A stretch of DNA of 64,000 nt from Bacteroidota bacterium (lineage in GTDB: Bacteria > Bacteroidota > Ignavibacteria > Ignavibacteriales > Ignavibacteriaceae): NCBI GenBank assembly GCA_021777835.1, contig JAJYDC010000003.1:1-64000 (forward strand). Direction: 5' to 3'. A model generated the notes under the pieces. It was not told the DNA's origin. It worked only from the letters and a program-made list of their open reading frames with translations, and searched no databases. Positions 51,087-57,391 of this stretch are shown one piece after another. The stretch's first letter is position 1. Each line of letters begins with the position of its first letter. Position numbers and translations under genes: made by a program.

Positions 51087-51419
51087 ATGGCTATAATGAT
51101 TACCGAAGAATGCATCAATTGCGGTGCTTGTGAACCAGAATGCCCGAATACTGCAATTTATGAAGGTGGAGTGAATTGGGAACTAGCTGGAAAGAATTAC
51201 AGTGCAGAAGACAATGCGCCGTCAGGTGCTACCAAATTCTACTCGAATGATTACTTTTATATCGTTCCCGACAAATGTACTGAGTGTAAAGGTTTTCATG
51301 ATGAGCCGCAATGCGCCGCTGTTTGTCCTGTCGATTGCTGCATTCCAGACCCCAATCATGTGGAAGATGAAGCAACTCTTTTGGCAAGGAAAGAATATCT
51401 TGATGGAATTGGAAGATAA
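51087..51419 (+). CDS. 2[4Fe-4S] ferredoxin, Alvin-type (copy 1)
   Basis: Small cytoplasmic electron carrier of 110 residues. The first cluster is [20 protein letters not shown] (Cys9, 12, 15, 19). The second is [20 protein letters not shown], a CxxC-x8-CxxxC arrangement typical of the Chromatium/YfhL family, followed by a short C-terminal extension. About 37 residues separate the clusters, an insert common in Bacteroidota homologues. An AGTGGAGAA site lies 9 nt before ATG. A terminator follows at 51470-51495. A near-identical gene follows at 51745; this copy alone has the TTGATATATATTAA palindrome upstream. Confidence 0.95.
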
Positions 51420-51744: not shown

Positions 51745-52077
51745 ATGGCGATAATGATCACACAAGAATGCATCAATTGCGGAGCCTGCGAACCTGAATG
51801 CCCAAATAATGCAATTTATGAAGGAGGAAACAGTTGGGAATTAGCAGGAAAAACTTACGGAGACGGTGAAGCTGCCCCCTCAGGCTCAAATGGATTTTAC
51901 TCAAATGACTATTTTTATGTAGTTCCAGATAAATGTACAGAATGCGAAGGCTTCCACGATACACCTCAGTGTCAGGATGTTTGTCCTGTGGACTGTTGCG
52001 TTGTTGATCCAAATCACACTGAAGATAAAGCTGCTTTAACGACTAAAAAAGAATATCTTGATTCAATTGGCAGGTAA
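51745..52077 (+). CDS. 2[4Fe-4S] ferredoxin, Alvin-type (copy 2)
   Basis: This 110-residue paralogue of the preceding ferredoxin keeps both clusters: [20 protein letters not shown], then CTECEGFHDTPQCQDVCPVD. Most differences fall in the segment between the clusters. AGTAAGGAG precedes ATG by about 9 nt. It has its own terminator at 52104-52130. The two genes have separate transcription units, so they probably serve different conditions or partners rather than dose alone. Confidence 0.95.
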   Translation: MAIMITQECINCGACEPECPNNAIYEGGNSWELAGKTYGDGEAAPSGSNGFYSNDYFYVVPDKCTECEGFHDTPQCQDVCPVDCCVVDPNHTEDKAALTTKKEYLDSIGR

Positions 52078-54601: not shown

Positions 54602-55546
54602 ATGGCAGATAATCATTTTAAAGTTATAATCATCGGTTCAGGACCGGCAGGATTTACAGCAGCCTTGTACACAGCAAGGGCAAACCTAAGTCCTTTAATG
54701 TTTGAAGGAATGCAGCCCGGAGGACAGCTTACTATTACAACAGAGGTAGAAAATTATCCCGGCTTTGAACATGGTATTCAAGGGCCGGAGCTTATGGATA
54801 TTATGCGAAAGCAAGCTCAAAGATTTGGTGCAAAATCTGTTTATCAAGAAATCACAGAAGTTGATTTTTCTAAGCGCCCATTTGTTCTGAAATCCTATGA
54901 CGAAGTTTATACCGCTGATTCCGTAATTGTTTCTACAGGCGCTTCAGCAAGACTTCTAGGCTTGGAAAGTGAAAATAAATATATGGGCTATGGTGTTTCC
55001 GCTTGTGCAACTTGCGATGGATTTTTCTTTAAGGGTCTAAAAATACTTGTCGTTGGCGGAGGAGATACAGCAATGGAAGAAGCAAATTATTTAACAAAGT
55101 TTGCCTCGGAAGTTACAATTGTACATCGACGTGATGAATTTCGTGCTTCAAAAATTATGCTCGATAGGGCTAAAAGAAATCCCAAAATAAAATTTCTAAT
55201 GAATAAAGTAATTAAAGAAGTTGTTGGAAAAGATGAGAATGGCAGAAAGTCAATGACCGGAGTGATTCTTCGTGATACAAAAGATAATTCAACTTCGCCG
55301 ATCGACGCAGATGGTTTGTTCATGGCAATTGGGCATAAACCGAACACTGATTTATTTAAGGGAATATTGGATATGGACGAAACCGGCTACTTAAAAGTAA
55401 AACCGGGTTCTACTTACACAAATATTGAAGGTGTTTTTGCTGCCGGAGATGTTGCTGATAAAACATATCGTCAAGCTATTTCTGCAGCAGGAACCGGATG
55501 TATGGCTGCAATTGATGCGGAACGCTGGTTAGAATCGCAAGAATAA
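54602..55546 (+). CDS. trxB: Thioredoxin-disulfide reductase
   Basis: TrxB uses NADPH and FAD to reduce thioredoxin in the cytoplasm. The 314-residue protein has the FAD motif IIGSGPAGFTAALYTA, the redox dithiol SACATCDGFF with Cys135 and Cys138, the NADPH-binding motif VVGGGDTAMEEANYL, and GVFAAGDVADKTYRQAISAA near the end. Length and order fit the low-molecular-weight bacterial enzyme. Weak AACGGAG lies 5 nt before ATG. A strong terminator follows at 55561-55588. Confidence 0.97.
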   Translation: MADNHFKVIIIGSGPAGFTAALYTARANLSPLMFEGMQPGGQLTITTEVENYPGFEHGIQGPELMDIMRKQAQRFGAKSVYQEITEVDFSKRPFVLKSYDEVYTADSVIVSTGASARLLGLESENKYMGYGVSACATCDGFFFKGLKILVVGGGDTAMEEANYLTKFASEVTIVHRRDEFRASKIMLDRAKRNPKIKFLMNKVIKEVVGKDENGRKSMTGVILRDTKDNSTSPIDADGLFMAIGHKPNTDLFKGILDMDETGYLKVKPGSTYTNIEGVFAAGDVADKTYRQAISAAGTGCMAAIDAERWLESQE

Positions 55547-55560
55547 AATTACGAAAAATT

Positions 55561-55588
55561 AAAGCCGGCTTGTTGCCGGCTTTTTTTT
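55561..55588 (+). terminator. Intrinsic terminator of trxB
   Basis: AAAGCCGGC (55561-55569) pairs with GCCGGCTTT (55575-55583), followed by a run of T. It lies 15 bases after the trxB stop and overlaps the end of the convergent membrane-protein gene. Confidence 0.93.
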
Positions 55589-55943
55589 ACTTAGCAAGGT
55601 CTTTTGATTCGAATTTTTTAGATAGAAGATTAGCAACTACAAAACCGATACCCGTTATTGTAAATAAAGAAAAAGGTACATAATAGTCACGTCCTAAAAT
55701 GTCCTCCAACATTAATCCGAGGCCTAATCCTATTCCGAAAAAAATAGAAATTATCCCTACTTTCAACATTCTATTTGGATCTCTTTTTCTTTCGAAATAC
55801 TCTTTTATTGAATCTGCAGAAAGACCTTTTTCAATCAGCATTTGTCTCTCCCTAAACCTAAAATAGTAATATGCGATAAGTACGAGTCCTATTACAAGGA
55901 ACATTACTATTGGTACAAAAACTCCAACAACTCCTGCATTCAT
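55587..55943 (-). CDS. Small membrane protein (DUF6249-like), predicted ECF sigma target
   Basis: The 118-residue protein has three hydrophobic helices (about residues 6-26, 61-78 and 88-107) with YFRFRERQMLIEKGL between the first and second, the mark of a small family often linked to ECF sigma operons. Its function is unknown. AAGGAA lies about 9 nt before ATG. It is divergent from the sigma factor gene, and the promoter-like pair TGTAACC-N17-GTCATAA at 56026-56056 points towards it. It may therefore belong to the sigma factor's regulon. Confidence 0.75.
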   Translation of the reverse strand: MNAGVVGVFVPIVMFLVIGLVLIAYYYFRFRERQMLIEKGLSADSIKEYFERKRDPNRMLKVGIISIFFGIGLGLGLMLEDILGRDYYVPFSLFTITGIGFVVANLLSKKFESKDLAK

Positions 55944-56025
55944 TTTTAATTTCCTTTCTAAATTTTTTCTAAATATTCAAACTGAAATATCTAATTTCTA
56001 GTTCTTTTATTTATTCTCTCAAAGC

Positions 56026-56056
56026 TTATGACTTGTATTTGCGCGAATAGGTTACA
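56026..56056 (-). promoter_or_regulatory. Predicted ECF sigma promoter, towards the membrane-protein gene
   Basis: On the minus strand this reads TGTAACC, 17 bases, GTCATAA. The identical elements and spacing recur on the plus strand at 56135-56165. The predicted transcript start is about 56019, leaving a leader of roughly 75 bases before the ATG at 55943. Confidence 0.65.
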
Positions 56057-56134
56057 AAAAAAATTATTGCATCTTATGTTACTTGTAAATATTTTTAGAC
56101 TAACATATGCTTTCCTATTATCTTTTTACTAATA

Positions 56135-56165
56135 TGTAACCTTTTAAATGGTGAGTTAGTCATAA
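56135..56165 (+). promoter_or_regulatory. Predicted ECF sigma promoter, autoregulatory, near-leaderless
   Basis: TGTAACC, 17 bases and GTCATAA face the ECF sigma gene, whose ATG is at 56172. A start 6-8 bases after the -10-like element falls at about 56171-56173, so the mRNA would be leaderless or nearly so. No Shine-Dalgarno precedes the ATG, in agreement. Confidence 0.65.
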
Positions 56166-56171
56166 AAGTAG

Positions 56172-56738
56172 ATGAAAAATATAAGCGACTTAGAAATAAT
56201 CGAATCTGTTAAGAAAGGAAATAGAGCAGATTACTCAATATTAGTGGATAGGTATAAAAATAAGGCATTTTCATTGATTGTAAGAATGGTAAAAAACCAA
56301 ATGGATGCGGAAGAGGTTCTTCAAGATTGCTTCGTAAAAGCGTATAATTCATTAGAGAGTTTTAAACAGCAAGCAAAATTCTCAACTTGGTTTTACCGGA
56401 TTGTTTATAACACGGCATTAACACGACTTTCAACGAAGAAAAGAAAAGTTGAGAATGACATGTCTTCTATTGATGAATTATACTTTCTTGAAAGCAACTA
56501 TAATCCTGAAACGACAGAACAAAAGGATTCTTCACAATTTATGCAATCGATGATCGAAAAACTGCCTCCAAGCTATTCAGCAGTCATAAATATGTTTTAT
56601 CTTGACAATATGAGCTGCGAAGAAATTAGTGAAATTATGCAGACGTCAGTTTCTAACGTAAAAGTAATGCTACACAGATCCAGAATTTTATTGCGTGATA
56701 TTCTTATAAAAAATAATTACGCAGAGGAAATATTATGA
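56172..56738 (+). CDS. ECF sigma factor
   Basis: The 188-residue protein is an extracytoplasmic-function sigma factor. The sigma2 region includes YSILVDRYKNKAFSLIVRMV and DAEEVLQDCFVKAYNSLESF with KFSTWFYRIVYNTALTRL; sigma4 includes LPPSYSAVINMFYLDNMSCE and EEISEIMQTSVSNVKVMLHR. No extra domain is fused. The promoter-like TGTAACC-N17-GTCATAA upstream suggests autoregulation. Its stop overlaps the next gene by 4 nt (ATGA), which fits a coupled anti-sigma. The inducing signal is unknown. Confidence 0.95.
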   Translation: MKNISDLEIIESVKKGNRADYSILVDRYKNKAFSLIVRMVKNQMDAEEVLQDCFVKAYNSLESFKQQAKFSTWFYRIVYNTALTRLSTKKRKVENDMSSIDELYFLESNYNPETTEQKDSSQFMQSMIEKLPPSYSAVINMFYLDNMSCEEISEIMQTSVSNVKVMLHRSRILLRDILIKNNYAEEIL

Positions 56739-57256
56739 TTCCCATAGATGACGAAACTTTAAATCAATATATCGACGGCGAGTTAGACCAATCAAAGCTT
56801 AATATTGTTAAAGAACAATTAATTAACTCTGAAATTGACAGGAAAAGATTAGAATATTTGCAAAAGGTTCACGGGGATCTAGGACAGTTGAAAATATATC
56901 AAACTTCAGCAAACTTCACCAGTTTCGTTATGTCAAAGTTAGAGAAAAAATTAAAATCAAGTAAAAAAGACAAAATTTTCATTTTATCTATATCGTCTGT
57001 TTTCATGATATTTTGTCTGGCAATTGCCGGTTATCTGTTATTCAATATTATTTCAGATCCTTCTAGCACAGGATTAATAGTAGAGAAAACAAATTTATAC
57101 ATGTCGATTTTAATGCAATTTACCGAAAGTGCGAAAGAAATATTTACACCTCAGAATATTTCAATATTCGGATCAATTATTTCATTCGGTTTCCTTGCTG
57201 TTGCTTACTTTATGTATGAAGAACATAAATTTTCTAAAAGAAAGATAGAACAATAG
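56735..57256 (+). CDS. Putative anti-sigma factor, single membrane segment
   Basis: The 173-residue protein starts DDETLNQYIDGELDQSKLNI, the helical opening of zinc-less anti-sigma domains, and then has one transmembrane helix (about 86-106: FILSISSVFMIFCLAIAGYL). A second hydrophobic stretch near the C-terminus may be another helix. No HxxxCxxC zinc motif is present, so it would be a zinc-independent anti-sigma. Its start lies within the sigma gene stop (ATGA), the usual arrangement for cognate anti-sigma factors. The C-terminal sensory part is not recognisable. Confidence 0.7.
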   Translation: MIPIDDETLNQYIDGELDQSKLNIVKEQLINSEIDRKRLEYLQKVHGDLGQLKIYQTSANFTSFVMSKLEKKLKSSKKDKIFILSISSVFMIFCLAIAGYLLFNIISDPSSTGLIVEKTNLYMSILMQFTESAKEIFTPQNISIFGSIISFGFLAVAYFMYEEHKFSKRKIEQ

Positions 57257-57280
57257 TAACAAACCTTTATATAGTTAAAA

Positions 57281-57308
57281 AAGGCTGTTGAAATTACAGC
57301 CTTTTTTA
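57281..57308 (+). terminator. Intrinsic terminator of the sigma/anti-sigma operon
   Basis: AAGGCTGT (57281-57288) pairs with ACAGCCTT (57296-57303), followed by T residues to 57307. It lies 25 bases after the anti-sigma stop. Confidence 0.9.
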
Positions 57309-57391
57309 TTTTGTAGTAAACTATTGCCTCCGTCATTTAATATTAGTTTGTATATTTGTATAGGGAAAATTAACAATTAAAGAATAATAAG

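Follow-up and report, generated by a model that had tools for sequence, protein, structure and literature searches.

Identical outward-facing promoters at an ECF sigma factor locus of an Ignavibacteriaceae genome suggest a closed autoregulatory circuit with a leaderless sigma mRNA

The window analyzed here is a stretch of 64,000 nucleotides, positions 1-64,000 of contig JAJYDC010000003.1 in assembly GCA_021777835.1 (Bacteroidota, Ignavibacteriaceae), which has 3,639,205 bases (3.64 Mb) and is 98.4% complete. An ECF sigma factor of 188 aa is encoded on the plus strand at 56172..56738, followed by the gene of a probable membrane anti-sigma factor of 173 aa (56735..57256, plus strand), whose start overlaps the sigma stop via ATGA and which is preceded by a Shine-Dalgarno-like GAGGA at 56724-56728 (plus strand). 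The gene for a 118-aa DUF6249 membrane protein lies divergently on the minus strand (55587..55943), with a Shine-Dalgarno-like AAGGAA, read from the sequence, ahead of its ATG (55951..55956, minus strand), and is convergent with a gene at 54602-55546 that looks by eye like a thioredoxin reductase gene. The start codons assigned in an earlier, sequence-only reading of this DNA, ATG 56172 for the sigma gene and the divergent ATG 55943 for DUF6249, are both correct; the 228-bp gap between these genes contains both promoter elements. Inverted repeats with T runs that look terminator-like by eye can be found at 55565-55590, past the reductase/DUF6249 pair, and a further one at 57277-57310, past the anti-sigma gene. 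Elsewhere in the window, a tandem pair of similar 110-aa ferredoxin-like genes, also named by eye, occupies 51087-51419 and 51745-52077.

The sigma factor has the domain content of ECF (group IV) proteins, with matches above cut-off to Sigma70_r2 (PF04542, 57.8 bits, cut-off 24) and Sigma70_r4_2 (PF08281, 52.5 bits, cut-off 25.7) and no further domain, and its closest solved relative is SigW (5wuq_A, E 7.2e-46). The divergent protein matches PF19762 with 55.5 bits against a cut-off of 33; its structural model (mean pLDDT 79, pTM 0.45) gave no Foldseek match at E <= 0.001 (best 0.62), and hence no functional hint. A profile search with the 173-aa protein of the window gave no family match of note, and seven of 21 aligned family members match zf-HC2 and two match RseA_N. 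The Hx3Cx2C zinc motif, which is optional in class I anti-sigma factors, is absent from the window protein but found in outer relatives, among them L058. The AlphaFold model of the window protein (mean pLDDT 81, pTM 0.32) contains the N-terminal anti-sigma domain fold of class I. Its top match is RsiW (5wuq_C; Z 7.0, 70 residues, rmsd 4.0), followed by RslA (Z 6.8, 55 residues, rmsd 3.0), MucA (Z 6.4, 53 residues, rmsd 2.4), RseA (Z 5.3, 49 residues, rmsd 4.1) and ChrR (Z 5.2, 57 residues, rmsd 3.2), with the next unrelated entry at Z 3.9, on a scale where, as the fold tool warns, Z under 13 can be common among helical bundles. Because five anti-sigma factors top this ranking, which is hard to read otherwise, the modelled fold points to a membrane anti-sigma factor of class I type, without the zinc motif, as the most likely identity of the protein. 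In loci L261-L288 (mostly of family f31; every third row inspected), the anti-sigma protein is shortened to ~130-140 aa, apparently with loss of the initial helices, and retains an FT..(V/I)M motif ahead of its first hydrophobic stretch.

The intergenic gap carries TGTAACC-N17-GTCATAA once on each strand, exactly as the sequence-only reading had described. The copy of the sigma/anti-sigma operon spans 56135-56165 on the plus strand (-35 at 56135..56141, -10 at 56159..56165) and the DUF6249 copy spans 56026-56056 on the minus strand (-35 at 56050..56056, -10 at 56026..56032), as located by motif search. All 14 of the 14 element bases are equal and both spacers are 17 nt long, while the spacer sequences differ; the -35 elements of these back-to-back promoters are 78 bp apart. 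The plus-strand element has the layout of a promoter of an ECF sigma factor's own operon, its two parts containing AAC (-35) and GT (-10). A scan of the whole assembly for TGTAACC-N15-19-GTCATAA returned two copies only, both at this locus, and none for the reversed control, and dinucleotide shuffles of the window (n=100) gave a mean of 0.00 motif matches. We rejected a chance origin of the promoter pair, given its absence from the shuffles, its uniqueness in the assembly and the clustering of sites at the same module in other genomes.

We scored promoters in 55 loci, comprising the window and L003-L057 without L044, drawn from the best 80 of 123; L044 was left out of every promoter count as its contig begins inside the gene. 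Start codons were picked by script, as the ATG nearest the alignment start in related loci and the first ATG in the phylum sample described below, so that some gaps are unsure in L058-L082 and in that sample. The motif, whose absence from orthologous loci had been named as the outcome that would count against it, is present there. A sigma-side site lies within 10 nt of the ATG in 49/55 loci, with gaps of 5 nt in five, 6 in 25, 7 in nine and 8 in ten, and when the first -35 base is left free it is found 5-8 nt before the ATG in 53/55, being missing in L042 and L049. The DUF6249-side copy occurs in 50/55 loci and both copies in 44/55. The spacers of the sigma copy are on average 37% alike across loci, and shuffled upstream stretches produced a fitting site 9 times in 110,000 trials. 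This pattern of conservation supports the proposal that in relatives, too, these are promoters of ECF type directed toward the sigma gene and toward DUF6249.

These loci contain 119 sites, of which 112 have TGTAACC as the -35 (the search pattern itself required AAC and GTC); the commonest -10 sequences are GTCATAA (26), GTCAAAA (21) and GTCTTAA (16), and the spacer is 17 nt in 93, 16 in 18 and 18 in eight. The constant parts are thus TGTAAC(C) and GTC, and the -10 past GTC varies widely. On these counts, the recognition sequence proposed from the window, TGTAACC-N17-GTCATAA, is better written as TGTAACC-N16-18-GTC-W-W-A-A. Likewise, the 14-base identity of the two copies holds in the window but is not a conserved feature, since it recurs in just 5/55 loci (the window, L003, L004, L007 and L019), three of which are the window and its 98-99% identical neighbours. 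Two DUF6249-facing copies are present in 18/55 loci (L008, L009, L012, L013, L056 and 13 others), often with one ~28 nt and the other ~85-110 nt ahead of the ATG; the window retains only the distant copy, 82 nt from the ATG.

We took a message to be leaderless when its 5' end lies at the start codon, with a leader under ~8 nt. In the window, 6 nt separate the last -10 base (56165) from the sigma ATG (56172), and the 18 nt preceding this ATG contain no GGAG, GAGG or AGGA, in line with the earlier observation that a ribosome binding site is missing. In the mapped promoter of Thermoanaerobacter RpoE1 (Tt-RpoE1), TCTATA is reported to span -11 to -6 (PMC3397946). By analogy, the sigma transcript is predicted to start at G 56171 (plus strand), 1 nt before the AUG, and the divergent transcript at ~56020 (minus strand), both within one base of the 56171 and 56019 predicted from the window. 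Under the same rule, gaps of 5-8 nt give predicted leaders of ~0-3 nt. Shine-Dalgarno-like tetramers at -18 to -4 were found ahead of the sigma gene in 5/55 loci, compared with 45/53 for DUF6249 and 49/55 for the anti-sigma gene; that the sigma gene lacks this signal, unlike its own neighbours, is partly because the -10 element occupies its place. The same gap measure gives DUF6249 leaders of 15 to 172 nt (68 sites). The leaderless sigma mRNA therefore stands as a prediction from comparison, with the 5-8 nt gap kept in 53/55 loci and few Shine-Dalgarno signals there. Leadered exceptions are L049 (66 nt) and L196 (80 nt), and among the outer named loci L058-L082, 11/18 divergent loci have a sigma-side site, just two of them within 15 nt. 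The 16S anti-Shine-Dalgarno pattern was not found in the window's own genome, perhaps being absent from the assembly, and Shine-Dalgarno use was gauged on genes in its place: a Shine-Dalgarno-like tetramer precedes 16/48 window genes, against 1/48 and 6/48 in two control stretches further upstream, and a figure of 32% has been given for Ignavibacteria (PMC10783764).

The sigma message could instead carry a leader, if the start codon lay further in or if a housekeeping promoter upstream made the near-ATG promoter one of several. There are precedents for both: for ecfF, a more distal start codon was assigned after the mapped transcript start proved to overlap the annotated ATG (PMC3420878), and in M. 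tuberculosis the leaderless promoter of sigE is described as accompanied by a housekeeping one (PMC10027907). An in-frame ATG, GTG or TTG is present somewhere in codons 2-24 of 26/55 loci and absent in the other 29/55; upstream and in frame, a stop precedes any start in 31/55 loci and another start comes first in 15/55. In the window, however, the in-frame codon directly before ATG 56172 is TAG and no ATG, GTG or TTG occurs in codons 2-24, which makes this start codon firm; since region 2 extends from residue 24 onward, a start further downstream would truncate it. No TAnnTTTG box was found on either strand of the window's gap, though this may not be the box of this class. We consider a leadered sigma message unlikely.

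Among aligned sigmas, the two residues that directly precede the V/I-K of the recognition helix, at 161/162 (S161 and N162 in the window), track the third -35 base in 146/151 sigmas, 21/172 having been left out for want of a site or helix. Asn is present at 161/162 in 111/151 sigmas, every one of which faces TGT, and 36/151 face TGA or TGC, 35 of them with Gly-Thr and one (L260) with Ser-Thr. TGT without Asn occurs in four, namely L077 and L301 (Ser-Ala), L255 (Ser-Asp) and L298 (Gly-Thr). On sigma trees built without the helix columns, from which L053 and L065 were excluded as their helix is missing, the motif changes three (78 rows) or four (171 rows) times. Independent pairs on well supported branches of the 78-row tree agree in 2/2 cases; among the three pairs of the 171-row tree, Asn shows agreement in an average of 0.9 and no difference in 2.1, while 'not Gly-Thr' agrees in 1.5, with none opposite and nothing significant. 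Following these independent-pair tests we dropped any claim of significance for the helix/base link, which is suggestive as a sign that the local sigma reads the motif.

Alternatively, the elements could be promoters of another sigma factor or repressor sites, with the local sigma acting on other targets. The window's own genome has 11 Sigma70_r4_2 matches above cut-off, and TGTAAC has also been given as the ECF16 -35 (PMC3420878) and is cited as a -35 of B. subtilis SigX (PMC12153292), so this -35 is not unique to the present sigma group. Against another reader, the helix residues of the local sigma go with the -35 base, and the sites go with the module. In 22 genomes hand-picked among DUF6249 carriers, TGTAACC-N17-GTCNTA (GTCNTA having been set after seeing the -10s of the phylum sample) has 35 sites versus eight in the control; 34/35 lie within 1 kb of a DUF6249 match, one lies elsewhere (G202:C1:3277070), and two of the 22 genomes have no such site. 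The same pattern gives one site, with no module gene adjoining, versus five in the control across 20 genomes that lack a DUF6249 match; 6/20 belong to the window's order, in which the -10s conform less closely to GTCNTA. With 35 sites in the former set and one in the latter, we regard a different reader as very unlikely.

The sequence-only reading had also anticipated a wider regulon for this sigma factor, and here the searches, all of which detect near-consensus sites only, did not bear it out. In the window's own genome, TGTAACC-N16-18-GTC has 11 sites versus 10 in the reversed control, and of the nine outside the locus, eight fall within reading frames (>=100 aa) and one is upstream of no gene. 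Allowing up to two mismatches gave 27 sites versus 29, and GTAAC-N17-19-GTCWNAA gave three versus 12, the third lying within a reading frame. A wider regulon detected through relaxed patterns was thus rejected, as matches were at, near or below the reversed control. In 97 genomes (own included), 33/49 exact sites are at the module, amounting to 26/27 of those with a spacer of 17, 6/8 with 16, 1/7 with 18 and 0/7 with 15. Among 89 distinct sites in the searched loci, 60 are before sigma or DUF6249 and 23 are inside reading frames; three are ahead of other genes (L103, L192, L202) and three in other gaps, one of them within a module's own gap. The two promoters look like nearly the genome's only strong sites, and the sigma factor therefore seems to switch on only itself and DUF6249.

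Most well-studied ECF sigma factors control more than one target, and this one could be an ordinary ECF sigma for which the two promoters are merely the strongest sites, with many weaker promoters that escape strict patterns. The wide variation of the -10 beyond GTC and the few consensus sites before other genes in relatives would fit such a broad regulon, but the relaxed patterns show no excess in the window's own genome, and we judge it improbable. The L202 site, at position 1508 of G002:C417, is a full-consensus one (GTCAAAA) 30 nt ahead of a gene for a 490-aa protein with a signal-like start, a possible extra target in one relative. A chance-level motif in L185 (G000:C42:44709) falls within a long Asn/Gln/Gly-rich repeat frame that appears curlin-like by eye.

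The two-promoter layout recurs in many Bacteroidota. DUF6249 is above cut-off in 123/392 genomes drawn from the phylum (about a third). For a phylum sample we took 100 of the listed DUF6249 matches with their surroundings and dropped five without a sigma match and two without a DUF6249 match, leaving 93 loci that combine DUF6249 with a sigma relative, divergently in 75 and on the same strand in 18. TGT-type sites are present in 50/75 divergent loci; in these 50, the sigma copy lies within 15 nt of the ATG in 43 (mostly 5-8), the DUF6249 copy is found in 49 and both in 43. A further 15 divergent loci have TGA- or TGC-type sites (eight within 15 nt) and 10 have no site. The site is ahead of DUF6249 in 9/18 same-strand loci and absent altogether in 19/93 loci of the sample. 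Downstream of the sigma gene, 88/93 loci have a reading frame of 90 aa or more that includes a hydrophobic stretch, 69 with an anti-sigma profile match at E < 1e-3. Seven named records (from Brumimicrobium, Dysgonomonas, Prevotella and others) have DUF6249 ahead of sigma on the same strand, and in 6/7 TGTAACC-N17-GTC precedes DUF6249. A divergent sigma/DUF6249 pair with TGAAACA-type sites was also seen in L073, from a metagenome-assembled genome labelled Ectothiorhodospiraceae and thus by name a gammaproteobacterium, reflecting either a wider spread or a mixed bin.

We consider it probable that the locus encodes a closed-loop ECF circuit, in which divergent promoters are read by the local sigma factor, the sigma mRNA is leaderless and, at full consensus, almost nothing else is controlled. 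The promoters and, by comparison, the leaderless message have thus been retained from the interpretation made on the window alone, and the wider regulon has been replaced by a closed circuit of two promoters. The putative anti-sigma factor made from the same operon would hold the sigma factor at the membrane until a signal releases it to read TGTAAC(C)-N16-18-GTC. The freed sigma would then transcribe its own operon and the divergent DUF6249 gene, creating a positive feedback loop that the co-made putative anti-sigma factor would bound. The sigma mRNA, starting at the AUG or no more than ~3 nt from it, would be translated leaderless with no need for a Shine-Dalgarno signal; the anti-sigma factor would be translated from its own Shine-Dalgarno signal, perhaps also by coupling, and DUF6249, which keeps its signal, may be a dedicated output, either as an effector or as a modulator of the anti-sigma factor.

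More tentatively, and with some doubt, the module could be a private, orthogonal Bacteroidota circuit, with essentially two promoters per genome in one gap, leaderless sigma translation that bypasses usual initiation and is perhaps favoured under ribosome stress, and a simple specificity switch in which Asn at position 161/162 recognises the T of TGTAAC, the place at which sigmas with Gly-Thr recognise A or C. Should the closed-loop reading hold, the membrane-signalling module found in ~1/3 of sampled Bacteroidota genomes would have one dedicated output; as this output is an uncharacterised membrane protein, the role of DUF6249 and the signal would become testable from two promoters. The sigma factor and promoter pair would also make a natural orthogonal part for use in Bacteroidota, and one leaderless gene conserved among leadered neighbours would provide a clean case on the purpose of leaderless translation in the phylum.

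SigW has a TGAAAC -35 and a large regulon. The Bacillus SigW/RsiW pair resembles the present one as the closest solved sigma and the top anti-sigma fold match, but SigW has a Gly-Thr helix in the alignment, versus Ser161-Asn162 here. The C-terminal extension of ECF41 sigma factors is SnoaL-like; the 188-aa sigma factor here has no domain past region 4, and its neighbour encodes DUF6249, not a COE-type product. Separately, precedents exist for ECFs with a single target (ECF41) and for an autoregulated sigma mRNA that is leaderless (sigE P2). ECF41 is described as having the sigma gene and one neighbouring gene as sole detectable targets, via a conserved ECF promoter whose motif often precedes both genes of divergent pairs, a single-target logic like that proposed here (PMC3426412). 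It differs in its TGTCACA -35, in a regulatory extension fused to its C terminus, in target genes of COE type and in a mapped 22/23-nt leader that carries a ribosome-binding site (PMC3426412), where the present module has a putative membrane anti-sigma factor, DUF6249, TGTAACC and a predicted leaderless sigma mRNA. M. tuberculosis sigE P2 likewise yields a leaderless ECF sigma mRNA transcribed by that sigma, but is reported as one of three promoters and to require MprAB (PMC10027907). Leaderless messages are common in M. tuberculosis, unlike in two Bacteroidota maps, which give 5.5% and 3.7% (<10 nt) (PMC9723704, PMC7366714).

ECF16/EcfF (PMC3420878) and Brucella BcrS (PMC8315932) share a tGTAACc -35 and an autoregulated sigma/anti-sigma operon with the present system, but are described with a CGAA-type -10 and a spacer of 14-17, and EcfF with about seven transcription units (PMC3420878, PMC8315932). 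Full-text literature searches, which covered few subscription papers, turned up no account of the DUF6249 module or of its promoter. Only 6% of Bacteroidetes ECFs are reported to lie beside a class I anti-sigma factor (PMC7406223), and so the module would belong to a minority of them. The motif given for SigP (PMC4800418) differs from the TGTAACC motif, and a Flavobacterium psychrophilum ECF operon reported under motif SM6 (PMC9723704) is a candidate counterpart of the module.
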